A stretch of 34,513 nucleotides of DNA from Mycobacteriales bacterium (GTDB lineage: Bacteria; Actinomycetota; Actinomycetes; JAFAQI01). This document shows positions 22,244 through 28,439 of the stretch, one piece after another; position 1 is the stretch's first letter; each line of letters opens with the position of its first letter. The stretch spans positions 1-34,513 of the forward strand of contig DASZRO010000114.1 in NCBI GenBank assembly GCA_035550055.1, written 5' to 3'. Position numbers and translations under genes: made by a program. The notes beneath the pieces were generated by a model that was not told the DNA's origin, did no database searches, and saw nothing but the letters and a program-made list of their open reading frames with translations.

Positions 22244-23263
22244 TCAGAAGACGGGAATGATGTCCTCGGGGCTGATCTCGCTGACGTCGACGCCGTCGAT
22301 GTCGAGCTCGGGAATGGCGGGGAACTCGATGCCCCACCGCCCGACAATGGCGCGGACCTTCGCCATGGCGACTCGCCAGTTCTCCGCCTGCTGCTCGTAG
22401 TTGAGGATGCCGAGGCCGGCGTCGCGAGCGATGTCGATGAGGATCCGGTGGTTGTCGAGGAAGTACGGCGGCAGATCCCAGAACTGCGTCGGCGGCTCCC
22501 ACAGGATCATCGACAGGAAGACGAAGCCGGCTCGCAGCTGCCGGGTGATCTGCGAGCGGTCGACCTCCGACAGGCCCGGGTACTCCTTCTCCAGGATCGT
22601 CATGCAGATCTGCAGATGCCGGGACTCGTCGCGCCCGATGCGGTGGAACACCTCCTGCAACAGCGGGTGTTGCGCTCCGGTGGCCATCATGCGGAACAAC
22701 GTGGAGGAGGCGACCTCGCCCATCATGAACGAGGTGAACAGCACCGCCATCGGATGTTTGCCGAGGCTCGCCGAGTAGCCCGACCAGTACCTGCCGCCGT
22801 TGTAGTAGAGCCAGCTGATGTTGTTGTGCGCCGCTCGCTCCAGATCCGTTGCCGGCGTCCAGTCGACCGGGCCGCCCGGCCACAGCCTCCCGATCGCCCG
22901 CTGGCAGCACTCCTCGTGGTTCATCTCGTCGCGGGTGATCGAGAAGAAGCACTTGCGGACCGGGTCCTCCTCGTGCACTTCGAAAGCGTGGATCGTCGCG
23001 CGGGCGAAGACGGCGGGACCGCTCGCGTCGAAGTTGGCGAGCAGCGCCCACCAGTACATGAACGCGAGACGTTGCTCGGCGGTGTAGGCCTCCGGGTCGA
23101 GGGAGTCCCACGGCAGGTCCGACGGGTTCCACAGCGCGACCTTGGACTTCTCGTAGATCGCGGCGAGCTTGTCGGTGTCGACCCGCCATTCCATCGGGTA
23201 GATGTTCGGCTGCGGGATGGGCGGCGCAGGCCAGAACCCGCCGTCGGGAACGTGGACGCTCAT
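22244..23263 (-). CDS. Ferritin-like di-iron protein
   Basis: 339 aa, all helical, with two DExxH motifs of a four-helix-bundle di-iron site: Asp112-Glu113-Met-Asn-His116 and Asp212-Glu213-Ser-Arg-His216. Glu183 (MMGEVASS) is the ligand from the third helix, 30 residues before the second motif as in R2-like and ferritin-like oxygenases. The first-helix ligand may be Asp79 or a nearby glutamate. This supports an iron-dependent oxygenase, desaturase or N-oxygenase rather than a storage ferritin, but I cannot assign a substrate. I use the ATG at 23263 with GAGGTG six bases upstream; a GTG at 23272 is possible. It follows the ABC permease gene by 57 bases on the same strand. Confidence 0.82.
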   Translation of the reverse strand: MSVHVPDGGFWPAPPIPQPNIYPMEWRVDTDKLAAIYEKSKVALWNPSDLPWDSLDPEAYTAEQRLAFMYWWALLANFDASGPAVFARATIHAFEVHEEDPVRKCFFSITRDEMNHEECCQRAIGRLWPGGPVDWTPATDLERAAHNNISWLYYNGGRYWSGYSASLGKHPMAVLFTSFMMGEVASSTLFRMMATGAQHPLLQEVFHRIGRDESRHLQICMTILEKEYPGLSEVDRSQITRQLRAGFVFLSMILWEPPTQFWDLPPYFLDNHRILIDIARDAGLGILNYEQQAENWRVAMAKVRAIVGRWGIEFPAIPELDIDGVDVSEISPEDIIPVF

Positions 23264-23320
23264 GCCGGTCACCTCACCTGCTACGAGCGTACGACTCAGG
23301 AGCCGAACCGGCGCCGAAGT

Positions 23321-24205
23321 TCAGGAGGTGACGTCGGCGTCGCTGAACCTCGCCCACGCCAGGCCGCCGGCGATCGCGACGTAGACCAGCTGGAGCAGCA
23401 GGTAGCGGGCGAGCTGGCCGAAGTCCGGCCCGACCCTGATCAGCGTCCCGAACGACTGCCAGTAGTTGCTGATCAGTCCCGGGTGGATCGCGTGCAGCTC
23501 GGGGATCTGGTCGAGCACGATCGAGAGCACCGCAAACCCGAGCGTCGCCGCCATCGCCGCGATCGGCACTTCCGTCAGCACCGAGATCAGCAGTCCGACC
23601 GCGATCAGCCCGAACAGCGACAGCCACACGTAGATCGCGACGGCCAGGATGCGCAGCAGGCCTTCGCCCACCGACACCGTCTGTCCGCCGAGCAGCGTGA
23701 ACGAGCCGGTCCCGAACAACGCGATGCCGGTGACGGCCGCGACTCCGGCGATGGTGCCGACCGCGGCGAGCGCGTAGGTCACGATCCCGAACGCCTTGAC
23801 GAACAGCAGCCTGCTGCGGCGTACCGGGACGAGCAGCAGGTAGCGCAGCGTGCCGGTCTGCGCCTCACCGGCCACGCCGTCTGCCGCGACGATGCCGACG
23901 ACGACCGGCAGGAACAGGTTCAAGGTGATGAACAGCGCGGTCAGCACCAGGAACAGCCCGCTGTCGGTGATCCGGTTGAGGAACTGCGGCCCGCCGCCGT
24001 CGTTGCCGCCGGGTGGGGACAGCTTGACCGCGGTCCCGATGGCCAGCGGGATCAACCCGAGTGCGGCGAGCAGGATCAAGTTGCGGCGGCGACCGAACGC
24101 GAGCCGCAGCTCCGAGCGGAGCTGGCGGCCGAGTGCGCCGCGATGTGGTTTCGGGCCGGGGATCCGGGCGCTGCCGGTGGCGATAGTGGCCTCAGCGGAC
24201 GACAT
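23321..24205 (-). CDS. ABC-2 type transporter permease
   Basis: 294 aa integral membrane protein with about six hydrophobic helices, an N-terminal polar tail and ending in FSDADVTS. The segment AGEAQTGTLRYLLLVPVRRSRLLFVKAFG is the conserved cytoplasmic coupling region of ABC-2 permeases (EGTLRxLLxxPVxR). The start at 24205 overlaps the end of the ATPase gene by 14 bases and has GAGAGGG just upstream. It forms the membrane part of the exporter with the preceding ATPase. The substrate could be an antibiotic, peptide or lipid; nothing in the sequence decides. Confidence 0.92.
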   Translation of the reverse strand: MSSAEATIATGSARIPGPKPHRGALGRQLRSELRLAFGRRRNLILLAALGLIPLAIGTAVKLSPPGGNDGGGPQFLNRITDSGLFLVLTALFITLNLFLPVVVGIVAADGVAGEAQTGTLRYLLLVPVRRSRLLFVKAFGIVTYALAAVGTIAGVAAVTGIALFGTGSFTLLGGQTVSVGEGLLRILAVAIYVWLSLFGLIAVGLLISVLTEVPIAAMAATLGFAVLSIVLDQIPELHAIHPGLISNYWQSFGTLIRVGPDFGQLARYLLLQLVYVAIAGGLAWARFSDADVTS

Positions 24206-25175
24206 CGAATCCCTCTCCGGTGAGCTGGACGAACAGATCCTCGAGGGCGGGTTTGGTGACGACGAGGCCGCGGACCGGTACGCCGGCCCGCACCAGCGCC
24301 GCGGTGACGTCCTCGGGTGCGACGTCGCCGAGCGGCGCACGGACCTCGTCGGATCCGGCGACCACGCCGTCGCGAAGCCCGACGTCGCGCAGGGCAGCGA
24401 GGGCGGCCGCGGTGGCCGGTGTCGTGACGGTGACCAGCGTGCTGTCCGCACCGCGGAAGTCCTCGAGGGTGCCCTGGCAGACCAGCTTGCCGGCGCTCAT
24501 GATCCCGACGTGGCTGCAGACCTGCTCGACCTCGGCAAGCAGATGACTCGAGATCAGCACGGTCATGCCGTCGGCGGACAGCTCGCGAACCAGATGGCGT
24601 ACCTCGCGCGTGCCCTGCGGGTCCAAACCGTTGGTGGGCTCGTCCAGCACGAGCAGGTCGCGCGGCTGGAGCAGCGCGGCGGCGATCCCGAGACGCTGCT
24701 TCATGCCGAGGGAGTACTGCCGGAACCGCTTCCCGGCCGCGGCGGTCAGGCCGACGCGGGCGAGCGCGGCCGCGATGCGGTCGCCGTGAGTGCTCGGGTC
24801 AGCGGTGACATCCATCCGGTCGAGCCGGGCGAGGTTCGCCTGCCCGCTCAGATACGGATGGAACGCCGGGCCCTCCACGAGCGCGCCGACCCGCGCCATC
24901 GTGACCGGAAGCTGCTCGGGCATCGGCCGGCCGAGCAGGGTGACGCTGCCCTCGGTGGGCCGGATCAGACCGAGCAGCATACGGATCGTCGTGGTCTTCC
25001 CCGAGCCGTTCGGGCCGAGGAACCCGAAGACCGCGCCCTGCGGCACCGCGAGGTCGATGTGGTCGACGGCGACCTGTCCGCTTCGAAACCGCTTGGTCAG
25101 GCCGCCCGTCGAGATGACCAGCGGTGCGCTCTCGGCGGCTGCTGCCGGCGTCTGCTCCTCGGCGATCGCCGTCAC
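24192..25175 (-). CDS. ABC transporter ATP-binding protein
   Basis: 327 aa ATPase of the DrrA/CcmA-like group. Walker A is GPNGSGKT (54-61). The signature motif reads YSLGMKQRLGIA instead of LSGGQ, normal for ABC-2 drug-type exporters. Walker B is LLVLDEPTNGLDP, followed by the H-loop in LISSHLL. A C-terminal regulatory domain of about 90 residues with a LEDLFVQLTGEG end completes the family pattern. GTG at 25175 overlaps the upstream stop (GTGA at 25172-25175), so its translation is tied to the LolA-like gene. It powers the permease encoded next. Confidence 0.95.
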   Translation of the reverse strand: MTAIAEEQTPAAAAESAPLVISTGGLTKRFRSGQVAVDHIDLAVPQGAVFGFLGPNGSGKTTTIRMLLGLIRPTEGSVTLLGRPMPEQLPVTMARVGALVEGPAFHPYLSGQANLARLDRMDVTADPSTHGDRIAAALARVGLTAAAGKRFRQYSLGMKQRLGIAAALLQPRDLLVLDEPTNGLDPQGTREVRHLVRELSADGMTVLISSHLLAEVEQVCSHVGIMSAGKLVCQGTLEDFRGADSTLVTVTTPATAAALAALRDVGLRDGVVAGSDEVRAPLGDVAPEDVTAALVRAGVPVRGLVVTKPALEDLFVQLTGEGFDVVR

Positions 25176-26329
25176 TGCGCTGCCTTGCTTGCGGCGAGCT
25201 GCTCGAGATAGCGCGGTGTCACCGCGCCGAGCAGGATCCGGTTGTCGTCGGTCACCAGGATCGTGACCAACGAGGTCGAGATCACATGGCCGCCGGCGAC
25301 GCGGTCGCCGAGCTGGTCGAGGGACTGCGCGAGTCCCGGTTCCTGCGGCGGCGCGCCAGGGGCAGCGGCAGACGGTGGTGCGACGTGCTCGACGAGGACC
25401 GAGGTCCAGTTGTGCCCGACGACGGAGGCGCCGCCGGCTTCGGTACCTGAGTCGCCGCCTTCAGCCGAGCCTGCGAAGGAGTGGCTGAACGGCAGCGGCT
25501 CGGTTGTCGCGGTCGGCGGTGTCGTGAAGTCGAAGGTCGAGGCGCTCGGCGCCGACATCGAGATGCTCGTGAACCCGACTTCGAACGCCGGGTCGGACGC
25601 GTCGTCGCGCGACCAGATCTGCACCCGCAGCGGCAGCGAGGTGGCCGAGTCGAGCGCGATCCGCACCGAGCCGACCAGGGTGTTGGCGTCGCGCGGCGTG
25701 AGGTCGACCTGGTAGGCCGGGCGGCCTGCGACCTCCGCCGTACGGTCCACCGTCACCGCGGTGGACGGGTCGATCTCCGCGAGTGCGCGCTCGGCGGCCT
25801 TGGCCGGGTCCATCGCCGTCGTCACGTCTGGCTCGGGTGCCTTGGCCGCGGAGTGGTCCGCCGCCCGGCCCTCGAGGGTGTTGTGGGTCACGGAGTTGCT
25901 GTCGCTGGAGTAGGTCCAGATGTCGTCGCCGTTGTGGACGACATCCATCTCGGACAGGTCGGACAGGAAGATCGCGAGTCGCTGCTTGTCCGGACCGCCG
26001 TAGGCGACCTGGGCGGTGTGCGAGCCGCTGAGCAGCGTCACGATCTCGGTCAGCCCGTCGTGCCCCGCCGGGGTCATGTCTCCGGCGAGCTGGCTGTCCC
26101 CGATGTCGGGCAACCCCAGCCGCGCGGTCTCGACCACCGTCCCGCTGAAGTGCGGCAACGGGGCCCTCTCCATGGCCGCGAGCAGCTGCGCCGCGGTGCG
26201 GGCCGGCAGGTGAGGGTGGGTGACGCCCGACGCTGCCTGCGGGACGAGGACGACACCGGCCGTGACGACGGCCGCACCGAGTGGGACGAGGTAGCGCGCC
26301 CGGTGACGCGCGGCGGGAGAAAGTGCCAT
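25172..26329 (-). CDS. LolA/RseB-like exported protein
   Basis: 385 aa. After a basic start (MALSPAARHRARY) comes a hydrophobic helix (about 14-32) that is a signal peptide or membrane anchor. The exported part has the half-barrel pattern of LolA/RseB proteins: HFSGTVVET near the start, NGDDIWTYSSDSNSVT, AEVAGRPAYQVDLTP and LPLRVQIWSRDD. A Ser/Ala-rich linker and a second region ending DDNRILLGAVTPRYLEQL follow. Proteins of this kind next to ABC-2 exporters are common in actinomycetes and may sense or bind a lipid at the membrane surface. The ATG at 26329 puts the hydrophobic segment near the N-terminus. It is the first gene of the ABC operon and is divergent from the two-component system, whose candidate sites lie just upstream. 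Confidence 0.83.
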   Translation of the reverse strand: MALSPAARHRARYLVPLGAAVVTAGVVLVPQAASGVTHPHLPARTAAQLLAAMERAPLPHFSGTVVETARLGLPDIGDSQLAGDMTPAGHDGLTEIVTLLSGSHTAQVAYGGPDKQRLAIFLSDLSEMDVVHNGDDIWTYSSDSNSVTHNTLEGRAADHSAAKAPEPDVTTAMDPAKAAERALAEIDPSTAVTVDRTAEVAGRPAYQVDLTPRDANTLVGSVRIALDSATSLPLRVQIWSRDDASDPAFEVGFTSISMSAPSASTFDFTTPPTATTEPLPFSHSFAGSAEGGDSGTEAGGASVVGHNWTSVLVEHVAPPSAAAPGAPPQEPGLAQSLDQLGDRVAGGHVISTSLVTILVTDDNRILLGAVTPRYLEQLAASKAAQ

Positions 26330-26339
26330 GGCGAAGAGG

Positions 26340-26375
26340 CTGACAGGACGCAACTGAGAGGACGCTGAGAAGCCG
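26340..26375. promoter_or_regulatory. Three direct repeats, candidate OmpR-type operator
   Basis: CTGACAGGACG (26340-26350), CTGAGAGGACG (26354-26364) and CTGAGAAGCCG (26365-26375). The last two are spaced exactly 11 bases, one DNA turn, as expected for tandem binding of an OmpR/PhoB-type regulator. They lie between the divergent ABC operon and its neighbouring two-component system, close to the LolA-like start codon. Confidence 0.55.
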
Positions 26376-26412
26376 CCGCCGCGGTGACTGGCCGGTTCCG
26401 GCGTACCGGTCG

Positions 26413-26418
26413 GACACT
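26413..26418 (+). promoter_or_regulatory. Possible -10 box for leaderless response-regulator transcript
   Basis: GACACT lies six bases before the GTG at 26425, the spacing of a leaderless start. It keeps the important second A and last T of the -10 consensus. I see neither a ribosome binding site before this GTG nor a good -35. Confidence 0.35.
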
Positions 26419-26424
26419 GGCTGG

Positions 26425-27096
26425 GTGCGCCTGCTGGTGGTCGACGACGAGCGTCGCCTCGCTCGTGCGCTCCAGACCGGGTTGGCGCGCGAGGGCTACG
26501 TCGTCGACGTCGAGTACGACGGCGCCGCGGGCCTGGCCAGCGCACTCACCGGCGACTACGACCTGATCCTGCTCGACCTGATGCTGCCGGCGCTGTCCGG
26601 TTATGAGGTGGTGCGCCGCCTGCGGGCGGCGGAGGTCTGGACTCCCGTCCTCATGCTGACCGCGAAGGACGGCGAGTACGACGAGGCGGACGCGCTCGAC
26701 GAGGGCGCCGACGACTACCTGACCAAGCCGTTCTCGCTGGTGGTGCTGGTCGCCCGCATCCGCGCGTTGCTGCGTCGCGGCGCCGCCCCGCGGCCGGTGA
26801 TCATGCGTTCGGGCTCCCTCGAGGTCGACCCCGGGACCCGACGCGTGCTGCGCAACGGCGACGAGGTCGAGATCACCGCGCGGGAGTTCGCGTTGCTGGC
26901 CTATCTCACCCACCACCAGGGCCGCGTCGTGTCGAAGGCCGAGATCTACGAGCACGTGTGGGAGTCGCACGACGCGAGCCGCGACCTCAACGTGGTCGAG
27001 GTCTACGTCGGGTATCTGCGCCGCAAGCTCGGCCGAGACGTGATCGAAACGGTGCGCGGCGCCGGCTACCGCGTGCCGCATGAGGGGCCGAGCTGA
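26425..27096 (+). CDS. OmpR/PhoB-family response regulator
   Basis: 223 aa. The receiver domain has the acidic pocket Asp7-Asp8, phosphoacceptor Asp51 (LILLDLMLP), Thr79 and Lys101 (LTKPF). The C-terminal winged helix (about 130-220) has the usual ITAREFALLAYL, VVEVYVGYLRRKLG and VRGAGYRV segments. It starts with a GTG at 26425. It is followed directly by its histidine kinase. It is divergent from the LolA-ABC operon, and the 11-bp repeats between them are the natural candidate for its binding site, so control of the exporter and of its own expression is likely. Confidence 0.96.
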   Translation: MRLLVVDDERRLARALQTGLAREGYVVDVEYDGAAGLASALTGDYDLILLDLMLPALSGYEVVRRLRAAEVWTPVLMLTAKDGEYDEADALDEGADDYLTKPFSLVVLVARIRALLRRGAAPRPVIMRSGSLEVDPGTRRVLRNGDEVEITAREFALLAYLTHHQGRVVSKAEIYEHVWESHDASRDLNVVEVYVGYLRRKLGRDVIETVRGAGYRVPHEGPS

Positions 27097-27119: not shown

Positions 27120-28439
27120 TTGCGGGCCCGGCTCACCTTCATCGCGACCGCCGCGTTGGCCGTCTTCCTCGCGGCCGGCAGCGTGCTGTTGCTGCACGGC
27201 TTCGCCTCCAGCCGGATCCATGCCGTCGACCAGGCGAGCCGGACCTCCGCCGACAACATCACGGCGTTGGTGAGCGCGGGTGCGCTTCCCCCGACGCTTC
27301 CGGTCCAGGCCGGCCAGAGCGCCCAGGTCGTCGACGCCGCGGGTGCCGTGTTCGCGGTCTCGCCCGGCACGTCCCGCACCCTTCCGCTCGTTGCAGGCAC
27401 CGAGCTGTCGAGCCTGGCAAGTGGCGGCCCTCGCAGCCAGCAGGTCGACGAGATCGCATCGGACGGCCTCAACCGGGTCCTCGTGCGCGCAGTGTCGGAG
27501 GGCGGCCGCACCGACTACGTCATCGTCGCCGAGTCGTTGCGTGACGAGCGAGCGACGCTGCACAGCCTGACGAGGTACGTCGTCATCGCCGCACCGCTGC
27601 TGTTGGTGCTGGTCGGCGCGACGCTGTGGATCCTGCTCGGCCGGGCGCTCGGCGCGGTGTCCTCCCTGCGGCGCGGCGCCGAGAGCGTCATGCATCCGAT
27701 CGGCGGGGTGCGGCTCCCGCTGCCGGAGGGTCGAGACGAGATCCGGGCCCTCGCCGTCACCCTCAACGCCATGCTCGACCGGCTGGGTGCGGCGGCGGCC
27801 CGAGAGCAGCAGTTCGTCGCCGACGTGGCCCACGAGCTGCGCAGCCCGCTCGCCGCGGCGCGGACGCAGCTGGAAGTGGCATTGGCCGAGCCCGACAGCG
27901 TGACGCGCGCCGAGCTCGTGGCCGGAGCGCTCCAGGACACCGAGCGACTCGTCACTTTGGTCGACGACCTGTTGACGCTCGCCCGCGTGGAGTCCGACAC
28001 ACAGCTGCGCGACGAGCGGGTCGATCTCGCGGACCTCGTGCCCTCGGCCGGCAACGGGACGTATCTGGTCGTCGGCGACCGTCGCGCGCTTGCCCGCGCC
28101 ATCGACAACCTGGTCGCCAACGCGCATCGTCACGCGGTGTCGAAGGTGACGGTGACGCTGGCACGACCGGCAGCCGACACGGTGGAGGTCCGGGTCGACG
28201 ACGACGGCGCGGGCGTGCCAGTCGAGGACCGGCAACGCATCTTCGAACGGTTCGTCCGCCTCGACGACGCACGGGCACGAGACGACGGCGGGTCGGGGCT
28301 CGGCCTGGCGATCGCGCATGCGACGGCGCAGGCGCACGGCGGCGCGCTGCGGGTGGAGGCCTCCGATCTCGGCGGCGCGTGCTTCGTCCTCGCGTTGCCG
28401 GCCGTCGGCGCCGTCACGCTCGACACGGTTTCGCGCTGA
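27120..28439 (+). CDS. Sensor histidine kinase
   Basis: 439 aa from the TTG at 27120. First membrane helix 7-27, an outside sensor region of about 125 residues, second helix about 152-174, HAMP linker, HisKA with phosphoacceptor His238 in FVADVAHELRSPL, and the ATPase domain with N-box Asn334, DDDGAGVP (360-367) and GSGLGLAI (391-398). Start choice is open. GGAG at 27106-27109 fits the TTG. In the same frame a CTG at 27093 overlaps the regulator's TGA (CTGA), has GAGGGG (27082-27087) upstream and would add nine residues (SRGWSRLGL-like), as in many homologues. It phosphorylates the regulator encoded before it and probably senses an envelope or drug signal handled by the ABC system. Confidence 0.94.
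   Translation: MRARLTFIATAALAVFLAAGSVLLLHGFASSRIHAVDQASRTSADNITALVSAGALPPTLPVQAGQSAQVVDAAGAVFAVSPGTSRTLPLVAGTELSSLASGGPRSQQVDEIASDGLNRVLVRAVSEGGRTDYVIVAESLRDERATLHSLTRYVVIAAPLLLVLVGATLWILLGRALGAVSSLRRGAESVMHPIGGVRLPLPEGRDEIRALAVTLNAMLDRLGAAAAREQQFVADVAHELRSPLAAARTQLEVALAEPDSVTRAELVAGALQDTERLVTLVDDLLTLARVESDTQLRDERVDLADLVPSAGNGTYLVVGDRRALARAIDNLVANAHRHAVSKVTVTLARPAADTVEVRVDDDGAGVPVEDRQRIFERFVRLDDARARDDGGSGLGLAIAHATAQAHGGALRVEASDLGGACFVLALPAVGAVTLDTVSR

Follow-up and report, generated by a model that had tools for sequence, protein, structure and literature searches.

Three similar 11-mers lie in a 95-bp region between a two-component system and an operon for an exported protein and an ABC exporter. 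Do these repeats form an operator and, if so, which regulator reads it and which genes does it serve? The initial annotation had proposed a direct-repeat operator for an autoregulated sensor-regulator pair that also controls an exporter with an exported LolA-like partner, as a plausible module for envelope stress or for a response to antibiotics. We examined this proposal in the window, by which we mean the whole stretch of 34,513 nucleotides analysed here, and in homologous loci of related genomes.

Organization of the locus

The region and the genes on its two sides are as follows.

23321–24199, minus strand: ABC-2 type permease, start uncertain (Pfam ABC2_membrane_2, 42.8 bits; ABC2_membrane_4, 40.4 bits)
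24192–25175, minus strand: ABC exporter ATPase, overlapping the stop of the rseB-like gene (Pfam ABC_tran, 98.2 bits)
25172–26329, minus strand: RseB/MucB-like exported two-domain protein, 385 aa (assigned from Pfam, NCBIfam and comparison of an AlphaFold model)
26330–26424: intergenic region, 95 bp, between the divergent starts ATG 26329 (minus strand) and GTG 26425 (plus strand)
26425–27096, plus strand: OmpR/PhoB-family response regulator, recognition helix NVVEVYVGYLRRK (Pfam Response_reg, 93.3 bits; Trans_reg_C, 86 bits)
27120–28439, plus strand: sensor histidine kinase (HAMP, HisKA and HATPase_c by Pfam)

Both OmpR/PhoB domains of the regulator pass their cut-offs (30.2 bits for Response_reg and 26.2 bits for Trans_reg_C). 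Homologues of the kinase adjoin the regulator in relatives, as judged from the kinase alignment, in which L102 is partial. A gene for an AurF/rubrerythrin-like diiron protein (22244–23272) lies directly downstream of the permease gene on the same strand. This gene, an SNF2 helicase gene and two further genes of the window were considered as members of the module and rejected: no homologues of the four were found by tblastn (E 1e-10) in the loci collected. The window itself served as the positive control and was matched in the tblastn search for the module members. Scans of the window for promoters and terminators, for tRNAs and against Rfam gave no matches.

A pair of direct repeats is conserved across families

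Over both strands of the whole window, the pattern CTGAnAnGnCG matches at 26340, 26354 and 26365 only. The pattern was derived from these same three copies, so the count of three is not an independent test. The copies are spaced by 14 bp (26340/26354) and 11 bp (26354/26365), in agreement with the original observation of three 11-mers in the divergent region, two of them one turn apart. A perfect CTGWGA-N5-CTGWGA appears in 3 of 20,000 dinucleotide shuffles of the 95-bp region. The elements to which we refer below are the following.

26337–26342, minus strand: predicted −10 of the rseB-like operon, CAGCCT, 11 bp from the putative operator and 7 nt from the ATG
26340–26350, plus strand: first 11-mer, CTGACAGGACG, overlapping the predicted −10 and spacer of the rseB-like promoter
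26353–26370, minus strand: putative operator, head-to-tail core TCTCAGC-GTCC-TCTCAGT, with a 4-bp spacer at 26360–26363 and a period of 11 bp
26364–26370, minus strand: half-site 1, the upstream half for the rseB-like promoter, TCTCAGC, with (nearly) invariant letters across 50 distinct loci
26353–26359, minus strand: half-site 2, promoter-proximal, TCTCAGT
26413–26418, plus strand: predicted −10 of the regulator promoter, GACACT, 6 nt before the GTG, predicted leaderless

With the exported protein as query, two overlapping sets of genomes of the class were searched, 60 and then 393, and gave matches in 24 and 124 genomes, respectively. Not all of the 124 matching genomes were taken into the locus set; f19, a family rich in matches, is represented by eight loci (L012, L014, L035, L038, L039, L044, L047 and L048). 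Left out of the set were L025–L027, which are second pieces of loci already included, and L089. The 85 loci analysed comprise 53 with a divergent regulator, including the window, and 32 without one.

Within 200 bp before the regulator, CTGWGA-N5-CTGWGA is present with at most one mismatch in 49 of the 53 loci, and in 51 when two mismatches are allowed. The corresponding frequencies in 5,300 dinucleotide shuffles are 0.4% and 4.0%. The two loci that lack the operator are L021 and L030, and the 4-bp spacing is kept in 51 of the 53. The loci are not all independent of each other, as f17 contributes 15 of them and f20 contributes 19. The first 23 loci served to define the motif. All of the 30 loci added afterwards contain it with at most two mismatches, and 29 of them with at most one. 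Conservation of the repeats before orthologous pairs had been named at the outset as the test of the proposal. The repeats are retained in 12 of 14 families, and the general loss that had been taken as refutation was not seen. Judged from these sequences, the conservation of the repeats elsewhere puts the putative operator far beyond chance. In one locus, L003, two complete repeat pairs lie within a single intergenic region, each facing the rseB-like gene.

The repeats stand at a fixed distance from a predicted −10 element

The 51 operator-bearing loci, less one dropped as identical, were aligned with the operator as sole anchor, and their sequences were followed outward along the strand of the exported protein. 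A hexamer of the form CAnnnT stands at a distance of exactly 11 bp; its A and its T are invariant in the 50 distinct loci, and its C is present in 48. The distance is fixed in all 50; the spacer between the operator and the hexamer is poorly conserved and contains no repeat. From the short distance to the ATG, the rseB-like mRNA is predicted to be leaderless.

The promoter scan of the window found neither a sigma-70 consensus promoter nor a recognisable −35. In the PhoB architecture, the operator stands in for the −35 of activator promoters. An 11-bp spacing without a −35 is, on sequence criteria, the layout of a promoter activated by a PhoP/PhoB-type regulator at the −35 position. The rseB-like promoter thus has in common with PhoB/OmpR-type activator promoters an operator at a fixed 11 bp from the −10 and no recognisable −35. 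It differs from them in that the −10 is CAnnnT, followed in the window by 7 nt to the start codon, with a leaderless transcript by prediction. Taking these features jointly, we consider it probable that the adjacent regulator uses 26353–26370 as its operator and activates the operon of the RseB-like protein and the ABC exporter.

Autoregulation is not evident in the window

The regulator gene also has a predicted −10 element close to its start: in 41 of the 53 loci, the end of a [CGT]AnnnT is 6–7 nt ahead of the start codon. A single shared operator might set both divergent promoters, so that the rseB-like operon is activated and the regulator gene autoregulated. The putative operator does lie between the two starts, and a second, regulator-facing operator with a −10-like hexamer at the model spacing is present in 12 of the 53 loci. 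A thirteenth regulator-facing match, in L030, is 65 nt from the regulator start. In the window, however, the operator, which is upstream of both predicted −10 elements, is 11 bp from that of the rseB-like gene and about 42 bp from that of the regulator. No second, regulator-facing operator was found; the best regulator-directed score is −17.9. Because no such copy is present, autoregulation is not readable from the sequence of the window, and the original description of the pair as autoregulated is not borne out here. We regard a shared operator as possible but, on balance, somewhat doubtful; it might act on the regulator gene from a greater upstream distance, or as a site of repression.

The operator is associated with the adjacent regulator

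A weight matrix of the full promoter was built from the 51 loci, and each locus was scored with itself left out. The 51 loci score between 17.4 and 43.2, with the window at 27.4. As full promoters, the 32 homologous loci that lack the regulator reach 8.6 at most, for a decayed copy at the right place in L007; some of these loci stop close to a contig edge (L005, L007 and L033 among them), and the absence of the regulator there may be an artefact. Two loci outside the first set also have a divergent regulator. L095 fits, with a score of 23.0, and L092 has the repeats, lacks the −10 at 11 bp and scores −0.4.

The operator alone was examined in a control set of 35 loci without a nearby regulator (the 32 loci together with L091, L093, L094 and L098–L101, with L023, L024, L033 and L091 excluded). 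It is present with at most one mismatch in 4 of the 35 (L029, L093, L094 and L099) and with at most two in 7; shuffles give 0.3% and 2.5%, respectively. None of the four has a high-scoring full promoter. No regulator was found within 5 kb upstream of L093, L094, L099 or L100, or within 1.5 kb for L029, and a regulator elsewhere in the genome may serve the sites of such loci. Operator-like repeats of this kind precede the rseB-like gene at L099:4962, L100:4963 and L094:4935, and likewise in L093 and L029. L099 and L100 are from Acidimicrobiaceae, with full-promoter scores of 10.3 and 4.5. In the eight f19 loci, the rseB-like genes have neither an adjacent regulator nor the operator; an ABC ATPase gene is near the rseB-like gene in six of the eight, in the stretch examined. 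By sequence, then, the operator is tied strongly to the adjacent regulator, though with exceptions. The proposal that the operator belongs with the neighbouring regulator and is placed for the operon of the exported protein and the exporter holds in this comparison.

The number of sites in the genome also bears on which regulator reads them. In the window's own genome, the full promoter pattern has one exact match, at the 26353–26370 site. A one-mismatch match on C31 was considered as a second target and rejected; it lies inside the coding frame of an amidohydrolase, on the other strand. The operator alone has two matches, the rseB-like site and a site on C108. The latter, at L105:1501 (G000:C108:34336), lies about 90 bp before an ECF-sigma gene. 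It was also rejected as a second target: there is no AnnnT at 11 bp, and the site was not found in the congener G001, in which the rseB-like site is the sole operator match. From these searches, the switch appears to be dedicated to the rseB-like operon in the window's species.

An alternative is that the operator belongs to another, global regulator of the OmpR type, such as an orthologue of PhoP or MtrA, and that the neighbouring pair is linked to it by position only. This would account for the loci that carry the operator with at most one mismatch and have no regulator nearby (L029, L093, L094 and L099), and the motif is one letter per half away from the Mtb PhoP box. It would not account for the difference between 49 of 53 loci with an adjacent regulator and 4 of 35 without. 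A global regulator would also be expected to have many sites, whereas one exact full promoter and two matches to the operator alone were found in the window's genome, and a single operator match in G001. We therefore think a global regulator unlikely and retain the adjacent regulator as the probable reader of the repeats.

Comparison with PhoP and other response regulators

In the crystal structure of Mtb PhoP, two TCACAGC repeats separated by a strict 4-bp spacer are bound by a dimer in head-to-tail arrangement (PMC4832192). Bases are contacted by Asn212, Val213, Glu215, Ser216, Tyr217 and Tyr220, and Ser216 and Asn212 share a water-mediated contact to A6 (PMC4832192), which in our motif numbering is the third base of TCACAGC. 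The putative operator of the window shares with the PhoP box, TCACAGC-N4-TCACAGC in that source, two 7-bp direct repeats arranged head to tail, the 4-bp spacer and the 11-bp period. It differs in the repeat itself, which is TCTCAGC here, with T as the third base, and in its apparent dedication to one operon.

The recognition helices are similar, NVVEVYVGY in the window and NVVESYVSY in PhoP. Five of the six base-contacting residues are identical; the exception is Ser216, which is Val. In the upstream half of the operator, the third base is T in 51 of 51 operators, and in the other half it is A in 40 and T in 11. Val is found at PhoP position 216 in all 49 regulators read; the regulators outside this number are those of L021, L030, L043 and L053, and that of L030 also has Val. 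The pairing of Ser216-to-Val with A-to-T in the repeat is suggestive, a match and not proof: the residue is invariant in the regulators read, so there is nothing to correlate, and the pairing is not a statistical test. Among PDB entries, the regulator of the window matches 1kgs best (163 bits), followed by PrrA (156 bits) and PhoP (154 bits).

CutRS and MprAB of actinobacteria are, like the pair considered here, two-component systems with proposed or known roles in secretion or envelope stress. CutR binds TAWATAAA (PMC12802291) and C. glutamicum MprA binds TKTTAAGAAM (PMC12113857). Both motifs were rejected as models because they differ, as given there, from the operator of the window; TAWATAAA, by reading, is absent from 26330–26424.

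The first 11-mer is probably not a half-site

Multi-repeat binding has also been described for Mtb PhoP (PMC4832192). If each of the three 11-mers were a half-site, the −10 would be covered by a trimer, or by an additional monomer, and the rseB-like promoter would be repressed. The third copy does match well, at 11 of 12 letters. Its 14-bp offset, however, breaks the strict 4-bp spacer, and the aligned loci show little conservation of the spacer and no repeat within it; among the three 11-mers, the pair at 26354 and 26365 alone is conserved. As the 26340 copy falls on the −10 and the spacer, where the aligned loci show no repeat, it is probably not a half-site of the regulator, and we consider repression through three half-sites very unlikely. 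The direct-repeat operator of the initial annotation is accordingly upheld for the 26354/26365 pair and given up for 26340. As to chance repeats in GC-rich DNA, short repeats are common and the pattern was picked after the fact, but with sequence, spacing and position conserved in 12 families, and with the motif present in all 30 loci that were added once it had been defined, this explanation is hardly credible. The candidate operator that remains is the two-repeat element at 26353–26370.

The exported protein is modelled as RseB-like

The exported protein passes Pfam MucB_RseB narrowly (24.1 bits against a cut-off of 22.3) and stays far under the cut-off of the NCBIfam lolA equivalog (23.4 bits against 112). 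Its AlphaFold model is of modest confidence, with a mean pLDDT of 67. In Foldseek, the model matches RseB and MucB best (E 6.9e-11). The superposition with RseB (2v42) covers 241 residues in the range 42–385 of the model, with a Z score of 15.2 and an rmsd of 4.5. Practically the same score, Z 14.7, is obtained for 2yzy, a functionally uncharacterized Thermus protein with one domain. For LolA-type carriers the highest value is Z 13.5, and the part covered is at most residues 42–290; LprG gives Z 9.1–9.6. On the strength of the Pfam and NCBIfam scores and the fold matches of the model, the "LolA-like" protein would be better called RseB/MucB-like, as it appears to be neither LolA nor RseB. That it is exported and has a LolA-type fold agrees with the first description; the protein fits RseB/MucB better than LolA.

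RseB is best known from Gram-negative sigma-E signalling, in which RseB/MucB has RseA/MucA as its anti-sigma partner. The protein of the window shares with the RseB/MucB sigma-E sensors a fold match across the mature protein and a MucB_RseB score above cut-off. Its identity to them is about 14%, and the neighbours of its gene within the window are a two-component system and an ABC exporter and not an anti-sigma gene.

The ABC exporter is a common but not constant partner of the rseB-like gene. An ABC ATPase gene follows the rseB-like gene in 14 of 23 regulator-linked loci and is absent from the other 9, within the approximately 1.5 kb examined downstream (shorter at contig ends). Homologues of the ATPase, 43–75% identical and mostly 57–75%, adjoin many rseB-like genes, not all. 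Control of an exporter operon by the pair, as first suggested, is consistent with the placement of the operator in the window, but the exporter is not a fixed member of the arrangement. LolCDE-type exporters have an FtsX/MacB-type permease; the permease of the window, in contrast, is assigned to ABC2_membrane_2/4 by Pfam.

Additional sites in relatives

Exact sites number 76 across 50 regulator-bearing genomes and are present in 47 of these; the reversed control gave 4. A second site is present in all 12 g43 genomes searched, and in 10 of them it is on the same contig, about 8–13 kb away. The seven second sites inspected in g43 (L116, L117, L120, L121, L122, L126 and L127) precede a lipoprotein gene. 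In L151:2406–4905, the lipoprotein is LppX_LprAFG (51.4 bits against a cut-off of 24) and is followed by an MFS_1 gene (139 against 33.4). An LprG lipoprotein with an MFS exporter is the arrangement of Rv1411c-Rv1410c in Mtb. Shared with that system are the LppX_LprAFG lipoprotein behind the g43 promoter, the MFS_1 gene in L151 and the LolA-type fold that the RseB-like protein has in common with LprG; unlike in g43, such a site was not found in the window's genome.

In f17, a close polyprenyl-diphosphate synthase (62–100% identity, the query's own genome included) is encoded in 7 of 16 genomes, and the promoter is directly upstream of its gene in all seven (L137, L139, L141, L142, L143, L146 and L148). 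The best matches in the other nine f17 genomes are 39% identical or less. Three of the seven proteins were scanned, and all three are Pfam polyprenyl synthetases. In G306 and G368 (L138 and L140), a site precedes a gene for a UbiE/MenG-type methyltransferase; that of G306 passes NCBIfam TIGR01934 (163.2 against 158.35). A MenG/UbiE-type methyltransferase behind the promoter hints at a link to quinones. In G100, a site precedes the gene of an ABC ATPase that is 39% identical to that of the window, compared with 57–75% for most rseB-adjacent ATPases. The other second sites, in L144, L145, L147 and L150, are unassigned or look like chance matches. In L119 (G216:C81:25893), by reading, a full promoter match lies just before another OmpR-type regulator gene. 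Taken by their annotation, the targets in relatives suggest envelope-lipid and isoprenoid handling.

A model for the switch

The model we propose builds on the observed repeats, on their conservation, fixed spacing and strong association with the regulator, on the finding of one full copy in the genome, and on the resemblance of the modelled protein to RseB in fold. The kinase would phosphorylate the adjacent OmpR/PhoB-family regulator. The phosphorylated regulator would bind 26353–26370 as a head-to-tail dimer, one monomer per repeat. Standing in place of a −35 element, it would recruit RNA polymerase to the −10 CAGCCT 11 bp downstream and would activate the operon rather than repress it. A leaderless mRNA would begin at or near the ATG at 26329, and from it the RseB/MucB-like protein, with its lipid-binding LolA-type fold, and the ABC exporter would be produced. 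Together, these proteins most likely remove or report a lipophilic component of the envelope or a lipophilic attacker; this lipid-related role is suggested by the fold and by the targets in relatives.

A more far-reaching version is that the RseB-like protein is both the exported lipid-sensing partner of the kinase and the main output of the regulator. The three components would then form a feedback on envelope lipid or isoprenoid, in which the regulator adjusts lineage-specific handling genes. These would be the ABC exporter, the LprG-like lipoprotein with its MFS exporter, the polyprenyl-diphosphate synthase and the MenG-like methyltransferase. We offer this version tentatively and consider it rather unlikely as a whole.

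The PhoP-like type of direct-repeat operator and the layout of a regulator beside an exporter are known already. The literature matches listed, from a search with subscription journals mostly outside its reach, include no paper on the system, the motif or the pairing of RseB/LolA proteins with two-component systems. Nor do those matches show an RseB-like protein associated with a two-component system, or a set of targets with a lipid and isoprenoid flavour. For the two-component system of many actinobacterial families, the analysis provides a precise, testable switch, with a candidate operator, a −10, a spacing and a predicted contact residue. The Ser-to-Val change, with its A-to-T partner in the repeat, would offer a compact way to test DNA recognition by PhoP-type regulators. 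The analysis also links an RseB-like protein to a two-component system, and the additional targets in relatives suggest that such systems may watch envelope lipids, isoprenoids or quinones.
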